The notes beneath the pieces are model-generated. The model saw nothing but the letters and a program-made list of their open reading frames with translations, ran no database searches and had not been told where the DNA came from. From assembly GCA_937873495.1 (NCBI GenBank), contig CALMXZ010000012.1, forward strand, positions 124,001 through 188,000: a DNA stretch of 64,000 nt, in the 5' to 3' direction. Shown here piece by piece: positions 19,997 through 35,822 of this stretch. Every line of letters begins with the position of its first letter. Position 1 is the first letter of the stretch. Position numbers and translations under genes: made by a program. Source of the stretch: an uncultured Trueperaceae bacterium. Its GTDB lineage: Bacteria > Deinococcota > Deinococci > Deinococcales > Trueperaceae.

Positions 19997-19997
<1 letters not shown>
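18558..19997 (-). CDS. actC: Alternative complex III subunit ActC (NrfD-like)
   Basis: A 479-residue membrane protein with about ten transmembrane segments of the NrfD/PsrC family. It contacts the ActB iron-sulfur part and contains a quinol site in known complexes; GIGHAGTLISA near residue 98 and WYSGVEFERY near 345 are conserved polar stretches likely near the quinol or proton path. The C-terminus is His-rich (HDHHHG). The ATG shares its A with the actB stop (TGATG). Confidence 0.93.
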
Positions 19998-22977
<2,980 letters not shown>

Positions 22978-22981
<4 letters not shown>

Positions 22982-23640
22982 CTGTGGCACGTCGAGCACT
23001 GGGTGAGCTTGTCGGTGTCGATGTGGTACGCCTCCACGAGGGCGGCGCCCAGGGCCAGTTGCGCCTTGGGGTCTGCGAGCGGTTGGTACGCCATGTTGAA
23101 GACCTCACTCACGGGCCGCAGAGCCGTCGCCGGGTTCCGGTGGCACTCCAGGCACCAACCCATGGTCAGAGGCTCGTTCTTCCATACCTGCGCCATCTCG
23201 TCCATGCGACCGTGGCACGTGCTGCAGCCGACGCCGTTGTTCACATGGGCGCTGTGGTTGAAGTACACGTAATCGGCGACCTCGTTGACGCGGTTCCACG
23301 CTATCGGCGTGCCGGAGTTCCAGGAGTCGACGACGGCCTGGACCTGGGGGGTGCCAACGCGCAGTTGCGAGTGGCAGCCCATGCAGGTCTCGGTCGGTGG
23401 CACGCTCGCGGTGTTGGAGGTCTCGACCGTGGTGTGGCAGTAGCGGCAGTCGAGGCCGACCTGGACGACGTGGAGGTTGTGCGGGTAGTCGATCGGCTGC
23501 GCCACCGGCACGCCGACTCCGTTGTTGGAGACGCGCGCGTAGAAGGGGAGGGCGACGATCATGAGCACGGCGAAGATGCCGCCGGCCCACACCGCCCAGG
23601 TGACGAAGGAGTTCGAGTTGGGAGGGAAGAGCTGAGGCAT
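22978..23640 (-). CDS. actA: Alternative complex III subunit ActA, pentaheme cytochrome c
   Basis: A 220-residue multiheme cytochrome with one N-terminal membrane anchor (about 10-32) and five CxxCH sites: CRYCH, CMGCH, CSTCH, CLECH and a terminal CSTCH. ActA links the iron-sulfur subunit to the outgoing cytochromes. The ATG at 23640 (MPQLFPPN) matches the expected short N-terminus; a GTG 99 nt upstream in frame lacks a ribosome site. The ATG overlaps the TGA of a 38-codon ORF, and an AAGGTG lies about 9 nt upstream. It is the first recognised gene of the seven-gene act operon. Confidence 0.93.
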
Positions 23641-23756
23641 CAGCCGTGCACCTTGACGCGCACCGCGCGTTGCCGGCCGGACCCTGCCGTGCTGGGCAAG
23701 AAGGCTGGTGGCCGGGTTGCTCTGGCTGGCGCTGGCCACTTTGAAACGCAGTTCAT
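23640..23756 (-). CDS. Putative 38-codon ORF coupled to actA
   Basis: ATG (23756-23754) is preceded by GGAG 4 nt upstream and GGGAGG further up, and the ORF ends in TGA overlapping the actA ATG (TGATG). The product begins MNCVSKWPAP and ends KVHG, is basic and shows no domain. It may be a leader whose translation sets up actA translation, or chance. The same DNA is also open in the actA frame. Confidence 0.3.
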   Translation of the reverse strand: MNCVSKWPAPARATRPPAFLPSTAGSGRQRAVRVKVHG

Positions 23757-24067: not shown

Positions 24068-25459
24068 TCAGCGTGACGGTCGGATGTTCTGGTTCCTGTC
24101 GAACACGTTGTCAGGGTCGTAGCGGTCCTTGAGCGCCTGCAGCCGGGCGTACTTCTTCGGCCCGAAGGCGCTCAGCACGCGGTCCTGGTCGACAGCGGTG
24201 AAGAAGTTGAGGGCCATGCCCGCGGTGGTCCATGGACGCAGCGCAGCGTCGGTGCCCTTGACCCACGCGATGTGCGTCGCGTCCTCGCCTTCGGTCCAGG
24301 TCCCGTAGCAGTGGTAGAACCACGGCGCCGCGCGGCCGCCGAGCGGAGTGGCGTCCTCGGGCACGTCGGCGACGGCGCCGCCGTAGCGAGCCAGGATCAT
24401 CGAGCTGAACGGCGAGGCGGCTAGGTCGGCCCGCTCGACGAAGGCGTCGATGGTGTCGTCGGCCAACTCGGCTAGCAGGTCGGAGTGCCAGTAGTTGCGG
24501 CGCCCGGCCGGGTTCGCCGCGTCCGTCAACGCTTGGAGCCGGGCGTATGGCAGCGGACCGGTCAGGTCGACTGCGGGCGTCGGGAACTCCCGCAACGGTG
24601 CGAGGGCGACCTCCGCCTCGGCGAGGTCGCCGAACCACGCCTCGAGGAGGGCCACGGCGGGCCGACCCTGGAGCTGGGTCGGGACGAAGGGCGCCGCCGG
24701 GGCGGTCATGAAGATCAGGCCCCCGGCGAACTGGCGTGGGGCGCTCGTCGCGAAGTCCCTGAACCGCCGCGCCAGGGTGACCGCCTGCTCGCGCGGATGG
24801 AGCCGGAGGCCGCCGTAGACGGTAGGACCGACCGGGTGCAGCCGGAGCTCGAACTCGGTGACGACCCCGAAGTTGCCGCCGCCCCCACGCAACCCCCACA
24901 ACAGCTCGGCGTTCTCCGTCTCGCCGGCCGTGACCACGCGGCCGTCGGCGGTGACGACACGGGCCGAGACCAAGTTGTCGCACGCCAAGCCGTGCATCCG
25001 CTCCAGCCAGCCGCTGCCACTGCCCAGGACGAAGCCGGCCACGCCGGTGGTCGTCATCCGTCCGCCGGTCGTGGCGAGCCCGTGCCGCTGGGTTGCCGCA
25101 TCCAACTCGCCCCAGGTAACGCCGGGGCCGCAGCGGACGGTCCGCCCAGCGGGGTTCACCTCGATCGACTTCATCGGACGCAGGTCCAGCAGCAACCCTC
25201 CCTCGCTGCTCGAGTAGCCGGCCACGGAGTGGCCGCCCGCGCGGATCGCCATGGGGACCCTCGCGGATCGCGCGAAGAGGATGGCGGCTATGACATCGTC
25301 GTCGCAGGTGGCCTTGGCGATCGCCGCCGGTCGGCGGTCGAACATCGCGTTGAAGACGGCCCGGGCTTCGTCGTACCGCTCACGGTCGCCGGCGGTCAGA
25401 ATCTCGCCGGCGAAGCCGGCCCGCAGGGCAGCGAGGTCGAGGTCAGGGGTGTCGGTCAT
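24068..25459 (-). CDS. FAD-linked oxidase of the berberine bridge enzyme type
   Basis: A 463-residue flavoprotein. The N-terminal FAD-binding domain (about 40-215) has RAGGHSVAG with His77 as the expected covalent FAD ligand, and the conserved WGLRGGGGNFGVVTEFE (about 205). The C-terminus ends with the BBE segment YDPDNVFDRNQNI. Such enzymes oxidise sugars, alcohols or aromatic side chains with O2 as acceptor; the substrate here is unknown. ATG 25459 (MTDTPDLD) is preferred over a start 36 nt upstream that would add a non-conserved tail and run close to the upstream gene. It lies 45 bp downstream of a Crp/Fnr-type regulator gene, which may control it. Confidence 0.88.
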   Translation of the reverse strand: MTDTPDLDLAALRAGFAGEILTAGDRERYDEARAVFNAMFDRRPAAIAKATCDDDVIAAILFARSARVPMAIRAGGHSVAGYSSSEGGLLLDLRPMKSIEVNPAGRTVRCGPGVTWGELDAATQRHGLATTGGRMTTTGVAGFVLGSGSGWLERMHGLACDNLVSARVVTADGRVVTAGETENAELLWGLRGGGGNFGVVTEFELRLHPVGPTVYGGLRLHPREQAVTLARRFRDFATSAPRQFAGGLIFMTAPAAPFVPTQLQGRPAVALLEAWFGDLAEAEVALAPLREFPTPAVDLTGPLPYARLQALTDAANPAGRRNYWHSDLLAELADDTIDAFVERADLAASPFSSMILARYGGAVADVPEDATPLGGRAAPWFYHCYGTWTEGEDATHIAWVKGTDAALRPWTTAGMALNFFTAVDQDRVLSAFGPKKYARLQALKDRYDPDNVFDRNQNIRPSR

Positions 25460-25504
25460 GGCAGCGATGCTGCTGCGGCCAGCCGGCGTGGGCAATGTTG
25501 CACG

Positions 25505-26206
25505 TCACAGGCCGTCAGGGTCGCTGCCAGCTGCGACCGCGAGGGCGGCACGGTCGTGCACGTAGAAGTGACCGTTGCGCTGGCTGATCACGCCGGCGAC
25601 CACGAGCGCCGCCAGTGAGCGGTTGACGTTCTCCCGCGACGCGGCGACTTGAGCGGCCAACTCGGTCTGCGAGAGTCGCGGCGTCAGCCTCAGCCCGTCC
25701 GCGGTCTGTTCGGCTTGCGCATCCGCCATCTCCAACAGACGACCGGCCACCCGGTGACCGATGTCGTCGAAGGCCACGCTGCTGAGCGAGTTCGTAGCGA
25801 GCACTGCGGCCGAGGCCAGGAGCTCGAGCATGCGCTGCAGCGCCGCCGGATGACGCGACAAGAAGGCCAGCAGCGCCGCGCGACGGATCATGAGGCAGCG
25901 CGTGGCCGTCATCGCGCTCAGACTCAGCCACCTCGACCCGGCCGGATGGAAGAGCCCGACCTCGCCCGTCGTGGCGACGGCGGTGACCACATCCACGATC
26001 ACCTCGCGGCCGTCCGAGTTGATCCGGTGCACCTTCAACTGTCCTTCCGCGAGCACGACGAGCACGTCCGCCGGTTCGCCTGCCAACCAGACCACCTCGC
26101 CCCGGACGAAGGATCTTTCGATCAGGCCGGGGAGCAACTCGGCGATGTCCGAGGCCGAGAGGTCACGGAAGATCGCTGCCTGGAGCAAGATCGCAGCCGC
26201 GTCCAT
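25505..26206 (-). CDS. Crp/Fnr family transcriptional regulator
   Basis: A 233-residue regulator with an N-terminal cyclic-nucleotide-binding-type beta-roll (about 10-125, including GEVVWLAGEPAD and GEVGLF) and a C-terminal winged helix (about 150-215) whose LSQTELAAQVAASRENVNRS is the recognition region. There is no Cys cluster as in Fnr, so an oxygen-sensing [4Fe-4S] centre is unlikely; the ligand is not known. It is probably co-transcribed with the flavoprotein gene downstream. Confidence 0.88.
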   Translation of the reverse strand: MDAAAILLQAAIFRDLSASDIAELLPGLIERSFVRGEVVWLAGEPADVLVVLAEGQLKVHRINSDGREVIVDVVTAVATTGEVGLFHPAGSRWLSLSAMTATRCLMIRRAALLAFLSRHPAALQRMLELLASAAVLATNSLSSVAFDDIGHRVAGRLLEMADAQAEQTADGLRLTPRLSQTELAAQVAASRENVNRSLAALVVAGVISQRNGHFYVHDRAALAVAAGSDPDGL

Positions 26207-26318
26207 CGCCCCAGCCTGGCACGAACGCGCGCGGCATCACCGCGAGGATGACCATCGACGACCGCGCCACCCCGGCGGTTCGGAACCGCGACGGCGCTGT
26301 TGGCAGATGAGATACGTA

Positions 26319-26362
26319 AACGAACGGCTGGAACGTTGGATCCAACGTTCCAGCCGTTCGTT
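26319..26362. repeat. 44-bp perfect palindrome 3' of tRNA-Ala
   Basis: Two 22-bp arms with no spacer meet at GGATCC; the arm from 26321 reads CGAACGGCTGGAACGTTGGA. With one bulged A the pairing extends by two more base pairs (GTAA/TTAC). It starts 4 nt past the CCA end of tRNA-Ala and could act as its terminator, although there is no T-run. Confidence 0.85.
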
Positions 26363-26366
26363 ACTT

Positions 26367-26442
26367 TGGTGGAGCCTGCCGGACTCGAACCGGCGACATC
26401 TCGCTTGCAAAGCGAGTGCTCTCCCAGCTGAGCTAAGGCCCC
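26367..26442 (-). tRNA. tRNA-Ala(TGC)
   Basis: A 76-nt gene with encoded CCA. The acceptor stem GGGGCCT/AGGCTCC contains the G3-U70 wobble pair that defines alanine identity. The anticodon stem is CTCGC/GCGAG with loop TTTGCAA (anticodon TGC), and the T-loop is GTTCGAGTC. It lies between two strong palindromes. Confidence 0.97.
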
Positions 26443-26499
26443 CCGCTGCCGTCCCGGTTGACCATGCTAGCAGAAGCACGCTGACCGGGATGCAGTGAC

Positions 26500-26533
26500 G
26501 TGCCCGACGCTGCCCACGGGCAGCGTCGGGCAC
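26500..26533. terminator. 16-bp hairpin downstream of the lipoprotein cluster
   Basis: GTGCCCGACGCTGCCC and its exact complement are separated by AC, giving up to 16 bp. It lies 24 bp after the stop of the beta-helix lipoprotein gene on the minus strand and upstream of tRNA-Ala. There is no T-run, so termination by the hairpin alone is uncertain. Confidence 0.65.
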
Positions 26534-26557
26534 TGACCCGGCATGGTCGCCGCCGGC

Positions 26558-28384
26558 CTACTGGCTGCGGCTCGCCTCTCCGGTGTTGCCGTACGCGCCG
26601 AGGTTCACGCGGCCGCCGTTGGGCTCGGACTCGGCGGCGTAGTCGCTGGCAGGGTCGCCCGCGTCGATGGCGGGGCTCGTCTCGGCGTCCGTGACCCAGC
26701 CGCCGGGGGTGAACCGGCCCGCCGCCGACCGCAGGTGGTAGTCGCCCGCCTCGGGGTCGGCGAAGAGCGGGTCGGCGTCGAGGTTGCCCGTTCCCGCCGC
26801 CGTGGTGATGGAGTAGGTGATGGCGTGGCTGCCGCCATCGACGTCGCTGAACTCGTGGGTGTTGCCCCACAGGATCGAGTCGCGGATGGTGATGGTGGAG
26901 TCGGCCTCGAGGTAGATGGCGCCAGCCGTCGTGCCGGGGCAGTCATGGTCGGCGATGGTGGCGTTGACGACGGTCACGTGGGAGGGCCCGACGCCGCCGT
27001 CGACGTAGATCGCCGCGCCGGAGCCGTCGTTCTCGGGGCAGCGGTTGGCGACGATGAGGTCGTTGCGCATGGTGCCGGTCGCGCCCTCGTCCCAGAAGAC
27101 GCCTGATCCGACGGAGGGGGCGAAGTTGTCGGTGATGACGTTGCCGCTGAACTCGGCGGTGGCGCCGGCGACGATCGCGCCGCCGCCCCAGCCGTAGCCT
27201 GCCGTGGCGCCGATGACGTTGCCGCGGATGACGTTGCCCTGCACCGTCGTGGCGGTCGTCGAGATGTAGAGGCCGCCGCCGTGGTCGCCGTTGCCCTCGT
27301 TGTCCTCGATGAGGTTGCCGATGATGGTGGCGTGCGGGCCGCGCACGTTGATGCCCGCGCCGCGGTTCGCCCTGTTCCCGCGCACGACGTTGTCGAGCAG
27401 GAGCACGTCGCCCGTCGAGTCGCCCCCCCAGTCCTGGTAGTCGACGTGGATGCCGCCGCCGCGCGTCTCCAAGCCCATCGAGGTGTAGTCGGCCGACTCG
27501 TTGTCGAAGATGACGTTGTGCGAGACGATCAACCGACCGGAGCCCATGAACTCGACGTACACGCCGCCGCCGGCGCCGTAGCCGTCCTGCCAGTCGCTGC
27601 CCAGCCCGCGGCCGTGCGTGATCTGGAAGCCGTCCAGCACGGTGTCCTCAGCCGACCAGACGTGGAGGCTGACACCTGGGTTGGCGAAGCCGCCGTCGAT
27701 GAGGCTGGTATTGACGGAGGCGTCGCGCACGTCGAAGTCGTCGGGGTCGAACCCTCCCAGGAGCTTCAGGTTGCGGTCGTTGAGGTCGTTGAAGGCGCCC
27801 AGCGCCACGTTCTCCTGGTAGGTGCCGGCTGCCACCTGGACGATGTCGCCTGCGTTGGCGGCCGCGATGGCTCCGTTGATGGTGTCGAACGGCGCCGCCG
27901 CGCTGCCGTCACCGCCGGCTGCCGCGCCGGCCCGCACGCACAGCACCGCCGGCGAGGCAGCGCCGCTGCCGGTGCAGGCGTACTTCTCGCCGTTGTCCGA
28001 GCCGTCGGGCCCGGCAGGTCCGCCCGGCGCCACCACCAGTAGGTTGATGCTGTCGGCCTTCGTCGCATCGAAGGTGCTGGTGGCCGTGATGACCGTCGTG
28101 CCGACCGCCAGGGCCGAGGCCGCGCCGGTGGCGTCTATGCCTGCCACCCCAGGCTGGCTGCTCTGCCACGAGACGGCCTGGCTGGCGCCCCCGGTCGATC
28201 GCACCTGTGCGACGAAGGTCCGGCTCCCGCCGACCAGCATGGTGGTGTTCCCTCCCTGGATGGCGACCGACGCGACGGCGGGTCCGGTGGGAGGCACGGA
28301 GGAGCAGCCGATCAGGGCCAGTAGGGCCAACAGGGCCACCACGGCGGCCTTCGCGGGCTGGGGGCGGACGGTTCGGTCGGTCAT
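26558..28384 (-). CDS. Lipoprotein with Ig-like and right-handed beta-helix domains
   Basis: A 608-residue exported protein. A signal peptide ends in the lipobox LALIGC. An Ig-like (BIG2-type) module (about 35-118) with VITATSTFDATKADSI is followed by a Gly-rich linker and a parallel beta-helix (about 150-580), with Asn/Gly/Asp-rich coils such as GGGVYVEF, GGGIHVDY and GGGLYIS. Such helices bind or cleave polysaccharides or act as adhesins; no catalytic residue set is obvious, so a binding role is favoured. Its Ig-like module closely resembles that of the propeller protein at 31720-33264. The ATG overlaps the stop of the second beta-helix gene (ATGA), and a strong hairpin follows. Confidence 0.8.
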   Translation of the reverse strand: MTDRTVRPQPAKAAVVALLALLALIGCSSVPPTGPAVASVAIQGGNTTMLVGGSRTFVAQVRSTGGASQAVSWQSSQPGVAGIDATGAASALAVGTTVITATSTFDATKADSINLLVVAPGGPAGPDGSDNGEKYACTGSGAASPAVLCVRAGAAAGGDGSAAAPFDTINGAIAAANAGDIVQVAAGTYQENVALGAFNDLNDRNLKLLGGFDPDDFDVRDASVNTSLIDGGFANPGVSLHVWSAEDTVLDGFQITHGRGLGSDWQDGYGAGGGVYVEFMGSGRLIVSHNVIFDNESADYTSMGLETRGGGIHVDYQDWGGDSTGDVLLLDNVVRGNRANRGAGINVRGPHATIIGNLIEDNEGNGDHGGGLYISTTATTVQGNVIRGNVIGATAGYGWGGGAIVAGATAEFSGNVITDNFAPSVGSGVFWDEGATGTMRNDLIVANRCPENDGSGAAIYVDGGVGPSHVTVVNATIADHDCPGTTAGAIYLEADSTITIRDSILWGNTHEFSDVDGGSHAITYSITTAAGTGNLDADPLFADPEAGDYHLRSAAGRFTPGGWVTDAETSPAIDAGDPASDYAAESEPNGGRVNLGAYGNTGEASRSQ

Positions 28385-30072
28385 AGGTGGTGACCTCTCT
28401 CGGTGATGCCGGTGTGAGTGTCGGTGATGGTGGTGCTGGTGCCTGGCGCGGCGCGGCGTCCGGAACCGCCGTCGAGGTCGAGCCCTGCCACCGCATCGCG
28501 CAGGGGCGCATCACGGGAGGCTCCGTCCGGCACGAGCTCGAACGCGCCGAGGTCGGGCGGACCGATGGGCACGCGCGGCCGTGCCGCGGCCGGCGGCACG
28601 TATACGAACGACGCGGTGTGGCCCGCTGCGACGGCGGCGGGGTGCAGTGCCTGACCCGCGTCGACGGCGGCGCCGTCCGGCCGTAGCTGGTAGCTGTCGG
28701 CGTCGCCACCGCGGAAGCCGGGGTCGTTGGCTGCGTTGCTGAGCACGTTCTCCATGCCGCTCACGGTGCCGCTGACCTCGACGCCGTCGCGGAAGGCAAC
28801 GACGCCGGGCGAGGCCCAGTTGGCGCCGAGCACGAGCGCGCCGGCCGACACCATCCAGGAGAGGTCGGAGGGGCGGGCGCCCGGCGTCGCCGGCTCGATG
28901 TGGACCACGTTGTTGCGGGCGTCGACGGACTCATCGTCGGTCGAGACGTCGAACAGCGCGATCCGCCAGCGACCCCCCTCGCCCTCCTGGTCGGAGCGGA
29001 TCACCACGGTGTTGTGGAAGAAGTACAGGGTGCCCTTGCGGTACGCGTCGGTCACGCCGCTGTCGCCCCCGTAATGGACCATGTACGACGGGCCGCCCGG
29101 TCCGTTGACGAGGACGTTGCCGTACACGTACGTCGCGCGGTACTCGGGCTGCGCGGTCGCCAGGTCCGAGCTGTCCTCCGCGTCCACCAGGTCGAGGGTC
29201 CTCGCGCCCCCTTCGATCCAGTTGTAGCGGATGACGGTGCCGGTCGAGCGGTCCTTGAGAGCCGAGCCGCCAGAGCCGTCTCGCAACGGGCCGATGTAGT
29301 TGAACTGGACCAGCATGCCTTCCGACTCGGTGTAGATGTTGTGGTGCCTGTCGAAACCGGTCGTGACGGTGCCGTTGCCGTACAGCGCCGAGTACTCGAG
29401 GACGATGGCGCGCGAGCGGACCTCTTCGCTGTCGCCCGAAGCCACGAAGAAGCCGTTGCCGTTGCCGGTGATGAGCACGCCGCGCACCGTGATGTGCTCG
29501 CCGCGCTCCACGAAGATGCCGGCGGCGTTGGGGTTGTACGCGACGACGGCGCCGGCCGAGTCCGTGAAGCTGTTCTCATGGAACGCGCCGGTGAGATGCA
29601 GGCCCTGCACGACGATGTAAGACGGTTTGTAGCCCCACGGGTCGTCCGAGCCGGACGCGACGTGGATGAGGCCGCGCGTCTGGGTGCCCTGACCGTTGTA
29701 GCCCATCGTCGGCCTGGTCGTCGCGTTCTCACCGCTGATGACCGGTAGCTCGCCGCCGGGACCCGCCACGCCGCAGACGGTGATCGGCCGTTCGGCGCTG
29801 CCCTGGCCGCGCAGGAGGACCTTCTCGCGGTACGGCTCGGCGCGCCAGTGGATCCTGACCGTGTCACCGGCGGTGAGGGACTCCCACGGCACGGCGCCGA
29901 TGGCGCCGTACGGCTGGCCGGGTCCGACCTCGTAGAGCGTGCCGCCGCTGGGAACGCAGGCCGTTGGAGCGGGGGAGGGCGAGACGTTCTGGGCACAGGC
30001 GGCGAGCAGGACCTGTACCGCGAGGACCAGCAGCGACGCGCTCAGGCGCCGTCGTGACGTTGTGTTGGTCAT
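28381..30072 (-). CDS. Lipoprotein with right-handed beta-helix domain
   Basis: A 563-residue exported lipoprotein with lipobox LLAAC. The mature part has repeated short strands and Asn/Gly turns typical of a parallel beta-helix (about 90-500), including GIFVERGEHITVRGVLITGNGNGFFV-type rungs as in pectate-lyase-like and carbohydrate-binding proteins. ATG 30072 is chosen because GAGGTG lies 9 nt upstream; a GTG 12 nt earlier is part of that ribosome site. It is coupled to the next beta-helix gene by ATGA. The C-terminus is Thr/Asp-rich and ends without an anchor. No assured catalytic motif. Confidence 0.78.
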   Translation of the reverse strand: MTNTTSRRRLSASLLVLAVQVLLAACAQNVSPSPAPTACVPSGGTLYEVGPGQPYGAIGAVPWESLTAGDTVRIHWRAEPYREKVLLRGQGSAERPITVCGVAGPGGELPVISGENATTRPTMGYNGQGTQTRGLIHVASGSDDPWGYKPSYIVVQGLHLTGAFHENSFTDSAGAVVAYNPNAAGIFVERGEHITVRGVLITGNGNGFFVASGDSEEVRSRAIVLEYSALYGNGTVTTGFDRHHNIYTESEGMLVQFNYIGPLRDGSGGSALKDRSTGTVIRYNWIEGGARTLDLVDAEDSSDLATAQPEYRATYVYGNVLVNGPGGPSYMVHYGGDSGVTDAYRKGTLYFFHNTVVIRSDQEGEGGRWRIALFDVSTDDESVDARNNVVHIEPATPGARPSDLSWMVSAGALVLGANWASPGVVAFRDGVEVSGTVSGMENVLSNAANDPGFRGGDADSYQLRPDGAAVDAGQALHPAAVAAGHTASFVYVPPAAARPRVPIGPPDLGAFELVPDGASRDAPLRDAVAGLDLDGGSGRRAAPGTSTTITDTHTGITERGHHL

Positions 30073-30127
30073 GGACAGGATCACCTCGGGAACAGCCTGA
30101 CGTGGAGGTCGAAGGATACGCCCGCTC

Positions 30128-31492
30128 TCACGGTACGAACGCGAGGACGTACAGGTCGGCCCGTGGCGTGGCCTGGCCGTCGAAACGCGTGGTCGCGCTG
30201 CCCACGACGATGATGGTCCCGTCGGTCTGCACCGCGACGCCCTCGGCCGTCGTCTCGCCTGACTCGGGGCCCCCGAACTGGCGGGTCCACAACAGGTCGC
30301 CGTCGGGGCTGTACACGCGCACGAAGCCGTCCTGCGCGCCGACGAGGCCGGCGAGGTCGCCGTCGGTTGTGCCGACGACGACGATGTTGTTGGCGAGGTC
30401 GACAGTCACTGCGCGCACCACGTCACTGCCGGCAGTACCGAACTGCCTCGTCCACAGCAGCGTGCCGTTGGCGTGGTACTTGCGCACGAACGCGTCGATG
30501 CCGCCGCTGGTCACGCCCGTGAGCGAGCCTCTGGTGTAGCCCGCCACGACGATGTGGTTGGAGCGATCGAAGGTGACCGCGTTGGCGACGTCTTCTTGCG
30601 CGGTGCCGAACTGGCTGGTCCACATCACCTGACCTTCGAAGTCGGGGTTGTAGATCCGCGCGAACGCGTCGAAGGTGCCGGCCGGGCCGGCGTTGGCGTC
30701 GCCGACGACCCCGGCCGTGATGCCGGCGACGAGCAGCAGTCCGTTGCTGGCCGTGGCGGCGGCCCTGACCGAGTCGAGCGCGGTAGTACCTATCTGCTTG
30801 GTCCAAGCGATGTCGCCGTTGGAGTCGTACTTGCGCACGAAGCCGTCGGCGTCGCCACCCGCGTAGGGCCCGTCGAGAGAGTTCTGGGTCCAACCCACGA
30901 CGAAGACGTTGCCGTCCTTGTCGACCGCGGCCGCCTCCGCTTCGTCGGTGCCCGCGCCGCCGATGTACTTGGCCCAGAGCGGAGCCCCGTTGGCGTCGTA
31001 CTTGCGCGCGAACGCGTCGTACTGGCCCAGAGGCTGACCGGCGAAGTCGCTGTTCGTCCAGCCGACCGCTACGGCGCTGCCGTCGAGGCCGACCGCGACA
31101 CCGCTCGCACCTTCGGAGGCCAAGCCGCCGCTCTGCGCGATCCACTGAACGACCCCTTTTTCGTCGAGTCGGGCCACGACTATGTCGAAGCCCCCGAGGT
31201 TGGTGCCGCCCAGGCTGCCGTCCGTCAAGCCGGCGAGCACGACGCCACCGTCCGGGTGCGCCGCGACGTCTCGGGCCTCTTCGAACTGTGGGGTGCTGAG
31301 GTACGTGCTCCACAGCACATCGCCCTGTTGGGGTGGGGGTGGTTGGGGAGTCGGTTGGCTGCACGCGACTATCGCCAGGAGCGGCAGCACGGCAGACGCG
31401 GCGGCGACACGGTGCCTGAGGGCGCGGGCGCGGCCGAGCCGCCCCGCGACGCGGGTTTGAGGTAGGTCAGAGCCGATGGAACGAGAGACCAT
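30128..31492 (-). CDS. Lipoprotein with a seven-repeat beta-propeller
   Basis: A 454-residue exported protein. An Arg-rich start and hydrophobic stretch end in the lipobox AIVAC, then a Pro/Gln-rich linker. The rest is seven repeats of 50-60 residues, each with a Trp-containing strand (VLWSTYLS, VQWIAQSG, PLWAKYIG, IAWTKQIG, VMWTSQFG, LLWTRQFG twice) and a DAFVRKYxxNG-type strand, as in SBBP repeats. A closed seven-bladed propeller is inferred. It probably serves as a surface binding scaffold. The ATG has AGGAG 8 nt upstream. It lies 55 bp upstream of the beta-helix gene at 28381-30072, so the two may be co-transcribed. Confidence 0.82.
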   Translation of the reverse strand: MVSRSIGSDLPQTRVAGRLGRARALRHRVAAASAVLPLLAIVACSQPTPQPPPPQQGDVLWSTYLSTPQFEEARDVAAHPDGGVVLAGLTDGSLGGTNLGGFDIVVARLDEKGVVQWIAQSGGLASEGASGVAVGLDGSAVAVGWTNSDFAGQPLGQYDAFARKYDANGAPLWAKYIGGAGTDEAEAAAVDKDGNVFVVGWTQNSLDGPYAGGDADGFVRKYDSNGDIAWTKQIGTTALDSVRAAATASNGLLLVAGITAGVVGDANAGPAGTFDAFARIYNPDFEGQVMWTSQFGTAQEDVANAVTFDRSNHIVVAGYTRGSLTGVTSGGIDAFVRKYHANGTLLWTRQFGTAGSDVVRAVTVDLANNIVVVGTTDGDLAGLVGAQDGFVRVYSPDGDLLWTRQFGGPESGETTAEGVAVQTDGTIIVVGSATTRFDGQATPRADLYVLAFVP

Positions 31493-31719
31493 GGTCGAGA
31501 CTCCTGAACCTGCGCGATGTGGGCAAGCCCGCTACGAGAAGGTGTCCGAACGCACCAACTTGAAGATCCCGCTTCGGCGGCGAAACTAACTTACAGGTAG
31601 AGGGATGGCTCCGGCGTCGAGCATACGGGCTTCGCTAGCCCTCGACGGCTCCGCCGTCACGTCGCGAGGGCCTGCCGGGCCGGCGGGGTCGTCTCAGGCA
31701 GCTGGGGCTCGCCGACCCC

Positions 31720-33264
31720 TCAGGGGCCGTAGAGCCTGACGTAATACGACGTGCCGCCCCACACTTTCCGGTCGCCGGTCGCGCCGACCACCACGAGCCT
31801 GCCGAGGGCGTCGACGGTCACCGCGGAGGCCGTGGCGAAATCGCCTGGCGCCGAGACGCCGAACTGGCGAGTCCACCTGACGAAACCGTCCGCCGCGTAC
31901 GCCCGCAGGAAGGCGTCGCGGTCGCCTTGCGTTCCCGCCAGATCGCCACGGGTGTTCCCGGCCACGAAGATGTTGCCGAGGGCATCGACGGCTACCCCGC
32001 GCGGATCGTCCCCCTCGGCCGTGCCGAACTGGCGTTGCCAAAGTACGTTGCCCGCGCCGTCCAGCTTGAGCACGAATACGTCCGAGTCGCCTTGGTTGTC
32101 TTCCGAGATGGAGCCGTAAGTGCTAGCCACCACGGTCACGTTTCCGTCGGCGTCGGCGGCGATCGCGAGACCGCTACCGCCTTCAGTAGCGCTGCTGCCG
32201 AGCTGGCGGGTCCACAGCGGCAGGCCGTCGCTGTCGTACTTACGCACGTACAGATCCCAGCCGCCGCGGTTCTCGCCCACGAGGCTGCCGGCGGTCGTGC
32301 CGGCCACGAAGATGTCGCCCGCTGCGTCGACGGCCACGGCCCAGCCATAGTCCTGGGCCTCGCTGCCGAACTGGCGCGTCCACAGCTCCGCGCCGTCCGG
32401 GTCGTACTTGCGCACGAAGCCGTCATAGCCGCCGGCGTTGGCCGCCCCGAGCACGCCCAAGGTGGTCCCGACCACGATGACGTTCCCGTCCTGGTCCGTC
32501 GCCACGCCGTTGGCGCGGTCGAACTCGGTGGCGCCGAACTGGCGGGTCCAGACCACGTCGCCGGTGGCGAAGTACTTGCGCACGAAGGCGTCGTTGCCGC
32601 CGCCGGAGCCGGCCAGGTCGCCTGCGGTCACTCCCGCTACGAGGGTATTGCCGTCGCCGTCCACGGCCACCGCCGTCGCCTCGTCATAAGTGGTGGTAGC
32701 TATCAGCCGGCTCCAGACCGGATCGCCGGAGGGGTCCAGCTTGACCAGGAAGGCGTCCAGCGCTTGGGAGATGAACTCGCCGGTAGGGTCGAAGTAGCCC
32801 GCCACCAGCAGGTCGCCTTCTGCGTCGCCGGCGACCGCGGTCGCGATGCCGTCGAAGCCCGCGCCGAACTCCCTGGTCCACACGACCGCGCCGGGCGGGA
32901 ACTCGGTGACCGTGACGGTGATGGTGTCGCTCTTGCTCGGGTCGAAGGTGCTGGTCGCGGTGATCTCAGAGGAGCCGTAGCTCGCCCCCTCCACCAGCAC
33001 GAACCTGGGGCCGTTCCCGACGAACGAGACCGTGTCGGGGTCGCTCGTGGTCCATTCGACTTCGTCGCCGGCCCCGTCGGTCGCCACCACGACAGCCGCT
33101 AGCTCGTAGACGTCGCCCAGGCCGATGATCAGGTCGCCGTCCACGATCTCCACGCTCAACACCCGGCCACCTGAAGGTGTGGTTGGGCAGGCTGTCAGCA
33201 CCAAGAGAGCCACGGCCCCGCCAAGCAGGGGCAACGATCGGGGCCGGCGTGCCGCCCGACTCAC
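31720..33264 (-). CDS. Lipoprotein with Ig-like domain and seven-repeat beta-propeller
   Basis: A 514-residue exported protein with lipobox VLTAC. An Ig-like module (about 35-120, with EITATSTFDPSKSD) precedes seven WTRQFG-type repeats of about 55 residues that match the propeller protein downstream. The start is taken as GTG 33264, with AGGTG about 9 nt upstream. The 14 nt around this GTG are the same as those that form the ribosome site of the gene at 28381-30072, so a slightly different start is possible. A 227-bp gap follows, with no gene or clear promoter visible. Role: probably surface binding or recognition; partner unknown. Confidence 0.82.
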   Translation of the reverse strand: MSRAARRPRSLPLLGGAVALLVLTACPTTPSGGRVLSVEIVDGDLIIGLGDVYELAAVVVATDGAGDEVEWTTSDPDTVSFVGNGPRFVLVEGASYGSSEITATSTFDPSKSDTITVTVTEFPPGAVVWTREFGAGFDGIATAVAGDAEGDLLVAGYFDPTGEFISQALDAFLVKLDPSGDPVWSRLIATTTYDEATAVAVDGDGNTLVAGVTAGDLAGSGGGNDAFVRKYFATGDVVWTRQFGATEFDRANGVATDQDGNVIVVGTTLGVLGAANAGGYDGFVRKYDPDGAELWTRQFGSEAQDYGWAVAVDAAGDIFVAGTTAGSLVGENRGGWDLYVRKYDSDGLPLWTRQLGSSATEGGSGLAIAADADGNVTVVASTYGSISEDNQGDSDVFVLKLDGAGNVLWQRQFGTAEGDDPRGVAVDALGNIFVAGNTRGDLAGTQGDRDAFLRAYAADGFVRWTRQFGVSAPGDFATASAVTVDALGRLVVVGATGDRKVWGGTSYYVRLYGP

Positions 33265-33366
33265 CTCGGGAACACCTGAGCGGTCAGTTGAACCGAGTCG
33301 CCAAGCGGGACCTCGTTGCCGGCGGCGGCAGCTAGCCCAGGCAAGCGGGTTCTCATGGCGCTCGGC

Positions 33367-34497
33367 TCAAGCATTGTCGCTGCCGGTCGGCCGCGCGAAG
33401 ATCATGCGGCCCATGTTCGTCTGCAGGCTCGATGTCACCACGACGTCGATGGTGGTGCCGACGCGATCGCCGGCCCCCTCGACGACGACCATGGTGCCGT
33501 CCTCGAGGTAGGCGAGGCCCTGCCCCGACTCGCGGCCCTGCCTGACGATGCTGAGCGCCAACCGCTCCCCCGGCAGGTACGACGCCTTGACGGCGCTGGC
33601 CAGCTGGTGGACGTTCAGCACCCTCACCCCCTGCAGCGCGGCCACGCGGGTCAGGTTGTAGTCGGTCGTGATCAGGTCGGCCCCGCGCTGCTGGCACAGG
33701 CGCACGAGCCGGTCGTCGACGGGCCCTTTCCCGACGTCGTCCTGGGCGACCTCCATCGTCATGCCGTCGGTGGCCGCGATGAGGTCGAGCGTCTCGAGGC
33801 CGCGCCGGCCGCGCTGGCGCTTGAGCTCGTCGTCCGAGTCGGCGATGCGCTGGAGTTCCGTGAGCACGAAGTGGGGCAGGATCAGCCGGCCCTCGAGGAA
33901 GTTCGCCTGGATGACGGCGAGGAGACGCCCGTCGATGACGGCCGAGGAGTCGAGGACCTTGCCGGCAGCCGCGGCGCCGTGCGGCAGCACCGGCTTGGCG
34001 TCAGCGCTCGGCAGGAACGGCAGGAGCTTGCGGTTGACGACGAAGAAGCCGCCCAACCCGACGACGAGCACCACCGCGACGAGTAGCGACCAGTACCAGG
34101 TGAAACCGGGCACGCTCGCGAGGATGTTGTTGAGCAGCACGGTTACGAGCAGCCCGAGGGTCGCGCCAGCGAGTCCAGCGAGCGCCGCGTCCGGCCGGAT
34201 GTGCGCGGCGCGTTGGACGACCGACTCCCACGCCCGGCCGGCGCGCGCCGCCGGCCCTCCGCCGAAGAGGTACGCCGTGAGGACGCCGAGGATCGTTATG
34301 AACAGGAGGTTGTTGGGTCCGGGGAGGGCGCCGCGGCCGACGAGCCAGCTGCCGATCAGGTAGCCGAGGGCGCCGCCGAGCAGCGCCAGCACCCACCTGG
34401 CGACGGCCTTGCCGAGCTCCGCTCCGCCTGCCTTGACCACGGCGGCATCGCCGTCACCCTGCAGGCGCACCCTGTCGCTCTTGTCGGCTGTCGTCAT
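33367..34497 (-). CDS. PIN/TRAM domain membrane protein (YacL family)
   Basis: A 376-residue protein with four hydrophobic segments (about 30-52, 63-80, 100-125 and 133-155), then a PIN nuclease-like domain (about 180-300; VLDSSAVIDGR and the TDYNL motif hold the acidic residues) and a C-terminal TRAM domain (about 310-365) for RNA binding. It is likely a membrane-tethered RNase, but the substrate is unknown. The ATG overlaps the radA stop (ATGA). clpC-radA-yacL is a conserved order seen in Firmicutes, where disA usually lies between radA and yacL; disA is absent here. Confidence 0.87.
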   Translation of the reverse strand: MTTADKSDRVRLQGDGDAAVVKAGGAELGKAVARWVLALLGGALGYLIGSWLVGRGALPGPNNLLFITILGVLTAYLFGGGPAARAGRAWESVVQRAAHIRPDAALAGLAGATLGLLVTVLLNNILASVPGFTWYWSLLVAVVLVVGLGGFFVVNRKLLPFLPSADAKPVLPHGAAAAGKVLDSSAVIDGRLLAVIQANFLEGRLILPHFVLTELQRIADSDDELKRQRGRRGLETLDLIAATDGMTMEVAQDDVGKGPVDDRLVRLCQQRGADLITTDYNLTRVAALQGVRVLNVHQLASAVKASYLPGERLALSIVRQGRESGQGLAYLEDGTMVVVEGAGDRVGTTIDVVVTSSLQTNMGRMIFARPTGSDNA

Positions 34498-35822
34498 CTC
34501 GGCCCCCAGAGTAGCAACAGAGCCTCTTGCAGCGTCCTTACACCGTCCGGCAGGTCTGCCGAGCGCGGCCCGACCAGGCGCGGGTGGCCTGCGCGCTTCG
34601 CCTCTTCCAACCGGCGGCCGAGTTGACCGACGGAGCGGAGCTCGCCCGCCAGGCCGATCTCGCCGACGAAGGCGACGCCCTCCGGCGCGGCGCGGTTCGT
34701 GACGGCGGAGTAGACGGCCACGGCCACGGCGAGGTCGGCGCCGGGGTCGGTGATGCGCAGGCCGCCAGCCACGTTGACGAAGACGTCGAGCGCCTCGAGC
34801 GGCAGGTCGACGCGGCGCTCGAGGACGGCGAGCACGACGTCGACGCGGCGCGCGTCCAAGCCCTGGACCACGCGCCGGGGGGCGGCGTAAGGGCTCTTGG
34901 ACGCCAGCGCCTGGACCTCGAGCAGCAGCGGGCGTTGGCCCTCGAGGGCCGCGACGACGACCGAGCCGGGCGCGCCCTTCGGCCGCTCCGCGAGGAACGC
35001 CTCGGAAGGGTTGGCCACGGCGAGCATGCCGGAGCGGGTCATCTCGAAGACGCTCACCTCGCCGGCCGGACCGAAGCGGTTCTTGATGGCGCGCACTACG
35101 CGCAGGCCGGCGGCGGACTCGAGCGCGAAGGTGGCGTCCACCACATGCTCGATCACCTTCGGGCCGGCGATGGAGCCCTGCTTCGTCACGTGGCCGATCA
35201 GGACGAGCACGCTGCCGGTGGCCTTGGCGGCCTCCACCAGGAGCGCCGTCGAGTCGCGCAAGCTCGTCAGCGTGCCAGGCACGCCGCCCGGCTCGGCCAC
35301 GAGCGTCTGGATCGAGTCGACGATGACGAGGTCGGGGGCCGCGGCGCTCAGGTGGGCGGCGATGACCCCGGCGTCGTTCTCGCGCGTCAGGCGCATGCCG
35401 GAAGCGAGCCCGATGCGATCGGCGCGCATGCGGACCTGGGCCGGCGACTCCTCGCCTGCCACGTACAGGACCGTGCGGCCGGCGCCGACAGCGTGCTCGG
35501 CCAGTTGCAGCAGGAGCGTCGACTTGCCGATGCCCGGTTCGCCCGCCAGCAGGGCGGCCGAACCGACCACCCAGCCGCCTCCGAGGACCCTGTCCATCTC
35601 GGCGTCGCCGCTCGAGAAGCGCACGAGGGTCGCGTCGGCCACGTCGCCGAGGAGCGTGGTGCTCAGGGCACGCTTGGCGCCGCCGCCCTGCGTCCTGGCG
35701 GGCTGAGGTGGCGCTTCCTCCTGCACGAGGCTGCCCCAGGCGCCACACGTCGGGCACCGACCCAGGCTGGCCGGGCTGCGCGCGCCGCACTCCTGACAGA
35801 CGTAGCCGGGCGAACGCGCCAT
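34494..35822 (-). CDS. radA: DNA repair protein RadA
   Basis: A 442-residue RecA-like ATPase that helps process branched recombination intermediates. It has an N-terminal C4 zinc finger (CQECGARS and CPTCGAW, about 9-28), Walker A GEPGIGKST near residue 93, the RadA-specific KNRFG motif near 245, and a C-terminal Lon-protease-like domain (from about 290). The length is normal. ATG 35822 follows clpC by 43 bp and its stop overlaps the PIN/TRAM gene, so the three form one operon. Confidence 0.95.
   Translation of the reverse strand: MARSPGYVCQECGARSPASLGRCPTCGAWGSLVQEEAPPQPARTQGGGAKRALSTTLLGDVADATLVRFSSGDAEMDRVLGGGWVVGSAALLAGEPGIGKSTLLLQLAEHAVGAGRTVLYVAGEESPAQVRMRADRIGLASGMRLTRENDAGVIAAHLSAAAPDLVIVDSIQTLVAEPGGVPGTLTSLRDSTALLVEAAKATGSVLVLIGHVTKQGSIAGPKVIEHVVDATFALESAAGLRVVRAIKNRFGPAGEVSVFEMTRSGMLAVANPSEAFLAERPKGAPGSVVVAALEGQRPLLLEVQALASKSPYAAPRRVVQGLDARRVDVVLAVLERRVDLPLEALDVFVNVAGGLRITDPGADLAVAVAVYSAVTNRAAPEGVAFVGEIGLAGELRSVGQLGRRLEEAKRAGHPRLVGPRSADLPDGVRTLQEALLLLWGPR

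Follow-up and report, generated by a model that had tools for sequence, protein, structure and literature searches.

What do four neighbouring genes for exported lipoproteins do together in the genome of an uncultured Trueperaceae bacterium, and do they form a functional set at all? The genes lie at positions 26558-33264 of the window, the 64,000-nucleotide stretch of DNA analysed here (assembly GCA_937873495.1, contig CALMXZ010000012.1, positions 124,001 to 188,000); all four are on the minus strand, in the order of transcription P4, P3, P2 and P1. An initial annotation made from the DNA alone had described four linked exported lipoproteins, two of them beta-helix proteins and two of them propellers with seven repeats each, and this description holds, at a level far beyond chance. 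Each open reading frame (ORF) has a signal-peptide-like start and a lipobox-like site (LTAC in P4, a weak IVAC in P3, LAAC in P2, LIGC in P1), P1 is recognised as a beta-helix by Pfam Beta_helix and P2 by its AlphaFold2 model, and a profile built from the blades of P3 and P4 themselves counts exactly seven in either protein. The lipobox calls are simple pattern matches, and lipidation and surface placement are predicted from sequence. The answer we favour, which we regard as about evenly poised between right and wrong, is that the locus is an accessory insert specific to this genome, whose four lipoproteins form a set for handling polysaccharide at the surface, with P2 as a lyase and P3 and P4 as binding heads. 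It is built on the gene layout, the modules, the insertion site, the conservation of residues and the predicted fold of P2, from which we infer catalysis, ligand, surface exposure and joint action. The genes and their modules are as follows.

31720..33264, minus strand: P4, 514 amino acids; immunoglobulin-like (Ig) module followed by a seven-bladed SBBP propeller (ORF, PF06739, lipobox, blade profile)
32908..33162, minus strand: Ig (Big_2-like) module of P4, residues 35-119 (home-made Ig profile, pairwise comparison with P1)
30128..31492, minus strand: P3, 454 amino acids; seven-bladed SBBP propeller, no Ig module (ORF, PF06739, blade profile)
28381..30084, minus strand: P2, 567 amino acids; beta-helix, candidate polysaccharide lyase (ORF, AlphaFold2 model, VIA match, 159 relatives)
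29062..29343, minus strand: candidate active-site stretch of P2 with H248, Y251, K277, R279, D298, H337 and D341 (conservation in the alignment)
26558..28384, minus strand: P1, 608 amino acids; Big_2 Ig module followed by a beta-helix (ORF, Pfam)
28034..28279, minus strand: Ig (Big_2) module of P1, residues 36-117 (PF02368 above cutoff, Ig profile)

Most of the cluster is ordinary: its surface lipoproteins are modular, their fold types are known, and the tRNA locus in which they lie is a variable one. The part with reach is P2, which belongs to a wide family, carries an active-site-like set of residues and closely resembles, in its predicted structure, an alginate lyase that has been characterised. 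P2 itself, whose ORF has an in-frame ATG four codons inside the listed start, matches no Pfam model at the gathering level or at an E value of 0.001, and pairwise comparison finds no sequence in common with P1. Relatives were gathered by scanning a contig database with an alignment (A2) and two peptide patterns, and the best 80 of 159 were used. They are 37-50% identical to P2 over the best segment and occur in Myxococcota, Planctomycetota, Verrucomicrobiota, Acidobacteriota, Bacillota and others. An 84-row alignment of the 80, P2 and three order-level homologues (L073-L075) gave a tree on 465 columns, in which the rows with a named phylum represent 17 phyla, the names being those of the record titles. 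P2 stands near Myxococcota and Acidobacteriota rows (support 89/71, an unstarred branch); L073-L075 are joined first by a gammaproteobacterial row (100/96) and next by a myxococcal one (100/99), and starred branches separate them from P2. Because the tree sets the two lineages apart in this way, each probably acquired the gene separately. In four loci (L093, L107, L113 and L125) the frame stops before the end of the tblastn match and was read to the first stop; these four, ORFs outside 440-620 amino acids and two ORFs running off their locus are absent from the 67-row alignment A3.

Sorting tails and PKD or Ig domains aside, no specific Pfam or NCBIfam model for the family was found among these 67 members. 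Pfam gave Beta_helix in 60, DUF5123 in 13 and NosD in seven, all of them weak (best E values 5.7e-9, 7.4e-5 and 4e-5, respectively), and NCBIfam gave weak choice_anch_Q and NosD models in eight members each. Some members end in type IX secretion system (T9SS) or MYXO-CTERM sorting tails, or carry PKD domains, and at least those members are therefore exported. Word searches of the literature returned nothing that we recognised as this family, which does not establish it as undescribed.

From A3, AlphaFold2 predicts P2 to be a right-handed beta-helix (mean predicted local distance difference test score 88.1, predicted template modelling score 0.88). The best VIA match of the model is PsAly (6kfn), a PL31 enzyme according to PMC8618178, with Z 28.0 and a root-mean-square deviation of 2.1 Å over 270 of 298 residues (chain 36-333 of 6kfn) at 17% identity. 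It is followed by Pel9A (25.1), an alginate epimerase/lyase (24.1), a phage protein (7chu, 24.0) and RbmB (9ozl, 23.8), the range of Z 22-25 being that of Pel9A, RbmB and uronan epimerases and lyases; VIA re-aligns only the candidates that Foldseek itself supplies.

The statement of the initial annotation that the cluster contains no enzyme motif appears mistaken for P2. Seven conserved residues lie on successive rungs of one sheet of the predicted helix, and H248, Y251, K277, R279 and D341 are the same in all 85 rows compared, D298 and H337 in all but one. Across the 84-row alignment, nine columns with H, K, R, D, E, Y or C show no variation (Y85, H248, Y251, K277, R279, R286, D298, H337, D341), and seven of these fall on or at the edge of strands 250-252, 276-278, 297-299 and 334-338 of the model, a set of strands that was chosen after the columns had been seen. 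The remaining two, Y85 and R286, are inside the search patterns, and conservation around Y85 and R286-W289 is biased for this reason. A plasmid-borne homologue from Herpetosiphon, which was found without the patterns and is 26-29% identical, keeps H248, Y251, K277, R279 and D341. Conserved Asn residues at 262, 288, 323, 358 and 392 of P2 agree with a structural ladder of their own, resembling the internal Asn ladder that PsAly is described as having.

The mechanism of PsAly offers a guide to what these residues may do. In the Figure 6 legend and the text of PMC6796002 Lys221 is the base and Tyr184 the acid, the abstract wording the roles in reverse; according to the same source the Y184F and K221A variants have no detectable activity, and the conserved or tested cleft residues follow one another in the chain as Glu181/Tyr184, Glu216/Asp219/Lys221, Asp250/Lys252 and Gln276/His278. 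In P2 the chain order is His248/Tyr251, Lys277/Arg279, Asp298 and His337/Asp341. An order of Tyr, Lys, Asp and His on successive rungs would be common to both proteins, and Y251 and K277 would be the counterparts of Y184 and K221, this being a match of rung order and not a residue-level superposition.

P2 is probably a carbohydrate-cleaving enzyme of a wide family, and most likely a beta-helix polysaccharide lyase following the PsAly/PL31 scheme. Lys277 would take the C5 proton of a uronic-acid unit, Tyr251 would protonate the leaving oxygen, and His248, Arg279, His337 and Asp341 would place or neutralise the carboxylate. P1, with a beta-helix behind its Ig spacer, could bind or process this polymer too. 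P3 and P4 would serve as lipid-anchored binding heads whose propeller tip most likely binds a glycan or matrix ligand, the tip of P4 being held off the membrane by its Ig spacer. More tentatively, and with the chances rather against it, we suggest that P2 represents a new and wide beta-helix polysaccharide-cleaving family which uses the PL31 Tyr-Lys syn-elimination with a metal site replaced, at least in part, by a conserved set of His, Arg and Asp, and which was recruited beside tRNA-Ala with stalked propellers as a bind-and-cut surface module. If P2 cuts polysaccharide, a large group of exported proteins gains a testable reaction and named residues.

Several observations weigh against this reading of P2 and of the set. 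A beta-helix fold alone proves no enzyme function, and the VIA matches of the model include phage tailspikes, PfbA (3zpp, 20.6), NosD (20.4) and the adenovirus hexon-interlacing protein (20.3). When ordered by Foldseek E value, lacto-N-biosidases come first and 6kfn ninth. Sequence kinship with PsAly was not found, as the A3 profile run against all PDB sequences at E<=10 listed only 3vst (weak, E 0.089) and neither 6kfn nor RbmB; L094, a close homologue, had only chance-like matches when searched against PDB sequences. On the assumed equivalence of rungs, two of the three cation-ligand positions of PsAly (Glu181, Glu216 and Asp219) would be altered, Glu181 (Tyr-3) to His and Asp219 (Lys-2) to Ala in P2 and to Asn in 88% of the family. 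In the Herpetosiphon protein, the most distant homologue, position 298 is Glu, 337 is Arg and 286 is Tyr. As for joint action, an SBBP neighbour is present in the fetched flanks of one of the 80 P2-family loci and an Ig-profile match in none of the 80, and P4, at 227 bases from P3, may be a separate transcription unit.

The single P2-family locus of the 80 with an SBBP propeller gene in its fetched flanks is L125 168-1877, from Pedosphaera. In two other genomes (G042 and G059) the P2 homologue adjoins a different lipoprotein (L074 7652-9364 and L075 8397-10139); the two neighbours are 74% identical to each other and one of them has a weak DUF5123 match.

What would the propellers contribute? 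P3 and P4 are 37% identical over 414 columns and to judge by this similarity are paralogues. Both match the SBBP repeat PF06739 well above its gathering score of 20.5 (P3 1.3e-17, 63.9 bits; P4 9.4e-32, 109.1 bits). When the blade profile was run over 1009 ORFs from 25 fetched loci and the window, 24 ORFs had blades, and exactly seven were counted in 16 of them, which carry no preceding Ig module in three cases, one in eleven, two in one and nine in one. The other eight ORFs show one to five detected blades, being divergent, split or cut by a contig end. These architecture counts are not independent, because the loci were selected as best matches and several ORFs come from one genome (three in L068, two in L069). 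Within these bounds the related proteins follow, as far as sequence comparison tells, a stalk-and-tip plan of a variable Ig stalk and a seven-bladed tip, a simple plan by which surface binding lipoproteins may be recognised. The clearest stalk-and-tip protein of the set, L072 5699-9265 (G027), has nine Ig modules followed by a seven-bladed propeller. In-frame stops, one or two per match, interrupt at least 11 propeller matches in G025 and at least five in G017 and suggest that these propeller genes are in decay or encoded separately. When P4 alone was used to scan the contig database, 39 stretches fitted the patterns but none was a relative.

Pointers to the ligand come from fusions and neighbours. 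Four proteins with SBBP matches were scanned, and two are fusions, with CBM60 in Deinococcus taeanensis and with malectin in Hymenobacter volaticus (both plasmid proteins); the Pedosphaera protein has SBBP only, and the one from Methanomethylovorans Disaggr_repeat and PKD. Two divergent propellers of the window's own genome, with five blades detected, adjoin a CBM_2/CBM49 protein; the one of the two that was scanned falls slightly under the Pfam cutoff. Because of the CBM60 and malectin fusions and the CBM_2/CBM49 neighbour, the propeller ligands may well be carbohydrate, to which the sequences point without proving it.

The claim that modules have been shuffled between unrelated scaffolds stands in part. 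P1 gives Pfam matches to Beta_helix (5e-14), Disaggr_assoc (8.6e-10), Big_2 (1.1e-7) and DUF1565 (3.5e-5), its Ig module scoring 32.2 bits against PF02368 with a gathering score of 22.8. The P4 module has no Pfam Big_2 match up to E 0.1 and was recognised by pairwise and home-made profile comparison. The N-termini of P1 and P4, signal peptides included, are 36% identical over 118 columns (E = 3e-11). The Ig modules are found on propellers, on P1, on L064 4659-6785, on the 343-residue L063 and on the triple-Ig protein L062, and as these scaffolds are unrelated, movement of the module between scaffolds is real. What overall identity does not indicate is a direct swap between P1 and P4, because each module is nearer to modules of other genomes: among 30 modules aligned from the fetched loci and the window, that of P1 is 53% identical to the Ig of a propeller lipoprotein in G018 and 36% to that of P4, and for that of P4 the figures are 49% with a module in G035 and 47% with one in L062 of its own genome. 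The core AT[ST]xxD is present in 24 of the 30. The exact TSTFD occurs in four, P1, P4 and two in L062, all of the window's own genome; since the motif is exclusive to these modules, it would be compatible with exchange within an own-genome pool and counts against the absence of a direct swap. Contigs C5, C9, C10 and C16 of this genome carry additional matches to the Ig module or the propeller. On C5 there is a second adjacent pair of lipoproteins, L064 4659-6785 and 7063-9003; the first combines Ig with a match to a Chlamydia-PMP-like repeat, and the second is a beta-helix protein whose match is Pel9A-like.

How the four genes came to lie together is best seen from their borders.

26500..26533, minus strand: hairpin directly after P1, 15 bp stem, terminator-like, without a U-run
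26367..26442, minus strand: tRNA-Ala(TGC), downstream border of the insert (ARAGORN)
33367..34446, minus strand: PIN-type gene upstream of the insert; ORF end 33367, start approximate (syntenic copies)

The PIN gene and P4 are 102 bases apart and P4 and P3 227; P3-P2-P1 look like one operon, because the gaps are only 43 bases between P3 and P2 and -4 between P2 and P1, which overlap. The 61-base stretch around the hairpin folds at -41.7 kcal/mol (z -5.5). Simple scans of 25400-34500 found no sigma-70-like promoter and no excess of terminator-like sites over expectation. Defence-system models gave no match for P1-P4; among PHROGs, Ig, propeller and virion/tail structural families match P1, P3 and P4, and no family matches P2.

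The PIN-type gene has syntenic copies, 70-89% identical, in all five other genomes of the genus, tRNA-Ala is in the syntenic position in all five, and the RadA-like gene next upstream of the PIN gene is present in all six when the window's own is included. The names PIN, RadA, ActA and ActB are presumptive ones, given from the look of the translations. From the PIN gene to tRNA-Ala the distance is about 6.9 kb in the window versus about 65-77 bases in the five others, as read from alignment ends with an accuracy of a few bases. Beyond tRNA-Ala the five loci have homologues of window genes 19997-23739, and they contain no match (tblastn E<=1e-4) to P1-P4 or to the genes at 24068 and 25505. P1-P4 are an accessory insert at a variable tRNA locus and not a conserved unit. 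In the wider comparison P4 matches 34 of 60 other genomes, some through its Ig module alone, P2 matches three of 60, its family profile matches three of 110 others from the phylum, and for the beta-helix part of P1 the 60 contain no match at E<=1e-5. Of the two findings that the initial annotation named as refuting it, one is seen and the other is not: homologues are scattered and for the most part unlinked, with the cluster missing from all five same-genus loci, but the shared module is real. What remains of its proposal is a linked set of exported lipoproteins on scaffolds of binding type, probably for carbohydrate or cell contact; what is lost is the conservation of the set.

The other flank of tRNA-Ala is variable as well. 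The window has a BBE/FAD oxidase and a Crp-like regulator there (24068-26206, identified by Pfam search), G003 about 300 bases (L086 8462-8772) and G004 other genes over about 5 kb (L085 9150-14300), which by eye we take to be of TetR and FAD type. Directly after tRNA-Ala a perfect 22-base inverted repeat (26319-26362; -37.7 kcal/mol, z -9.3) is probably its terminator. At the upstream end of the insert a 31-codon frame (33261-33356, minus strand) ends on the P4 start codon and contains a Big_2-like phrase that scores 7.1 bits versus a best of 3.5 in 1000 shuffled peptides; it is possibly debris of an earlier Ig lipoprotein gene. Integration directed by the tRNA was considered and rejected, as the 3' end of the tRNA does not recur in the window and a search for flanking direct repeats came up empty. 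No integrase was noticed among the window ORF translations, no family search having been aimed at integrases.

These borders bear on the most serious alternative, that P1-P4 are neighbours only by virtue of an insertion hotspot at tRNA-Ala and have separate functions. The differing cargo on both sides of the tRNA among genomes of one genus, the unlinked or absent relatives of P2 and of the P1 beta-helix part elsewhere and the lack of a repeat marking one insertion event all agree with it. It does not readily explain why all four are lipoproteins of related module types, nor why P3-P2-P1 are close-packed with one strong hairpin after P1, and we think it possible though unlikely.

But if P2 is an enzyme, need it be a lyase? 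It could instead be a uronan C5-epimerase or a glycoside hydrolase, since AlgE4, AlgE6, the alginate epimerase/lyase 8ja4, BT_1002 and lacto-N-biosidases are among its high structure matches, and the strictly kept acid D341 together with D or E at 298 could serve hydrolysis. The best VIA Z and deviation, however, go to a lyase, PsAly, the Tyr-Lys order on successive rungs would fit that enzyme, and H337 is replaced by Arg in the most distant homologue, all of which makes this alternative doubtful to us. It is likewise improbable, and more clearly so, that none of the four is catalytic and that they serve simply for binding or adhesion, in the manner of leptospiral LipL53, DUF1565 lipoproteins and PfbA. 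P3 and P4 do match the LipL53-family model NF047494 (142.7 bits, 1.4e-41 and 169.2 bits, 1.2e-49), below its curated cutoff of 400, laminin, fibronectin and collagen IV are described as ligands of LipL53 (PMC13066512), and PfbA is among the matches of the P2 model. In a mere scaffold, however, there would be little reason to keep His, Tyr, Lys, Arg and Asp, on neighbouring rungs of one sheet, identical in every one of 85 rows from many phyla. Finally, that P3 and P4 are alkylating enzymes of the CylK type has a negligible chance: CylK is their sole strong solved relative (phmmer E 1.2e-51 for P3 and 4.2e-63 for P4), but of the CylK residues described in PMC8916777 (Arg105, in the N-terminal calcium-binding domain, Asp440 and Tyr473) the first lies before the alignments, which start at CylK residue 205 or later, its domain has no room in 58 residues before blade 1 of P3 or in the signal and Ig of P4, and the Asp440 and Tyr473 pair is not kept (R250 and Y280, the latter retained, in P4; S241 and F274 in P3).

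A surface polysaccharide-handling set as favoured here resembles known systems in its parts. PsAly, the PL31 alginate lyase of Paenibacillus sp. FPU-7, is like the P2 model a right-handed beta-helix, and by the account in PMC6796002 it has a conserved Tyr and then Lys on its active face, to which Y251 and K277 may correspond; P2 differs in being a longer protein and a lipoprotein, with His and Ala/Asn for Glu181 and Asp219 if the rungs correspond. The Big_2 Ig proteins (PF02368) include the P1 module, which passes the Pfam cutoff, whereas the kinship of the P4 module shows only in pairwise and home-made profile comparison. Like P3 and P4, the LipL53-family SBBP lipoproteins of Leptospira carry an SBBP propeller on a lipoprotein, the scores staying below the cutoff of the model. 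CylK, alongside which BrtB is named in PMC8916777, has a related seven-bladed propeller; P3 and P4 are without its N-terminal catalytic half and without Asp440. The comparison for the set as a whole, one of function and not of kinship, is with RbmB and Bap1 (and its relative RbmC) of Vibrio cholerae, where a biofilm matrix adhesin of propeller type accompanies a beta-helix lyase. RbmB is described as an alpha-1,4-polysaccharide lyase that disrupts aggregates of Bap1 and Vibrio polysaccharide (VPS) (PMC11637428), and Bap1 as an eight-bladed propeller with a beta-prism (PMC8295476), as against the seven blades of P3 and P4. Ig stalks and lipid anchors do not figure in the descriptions of RbmB and Bap1 taken from these two sources.

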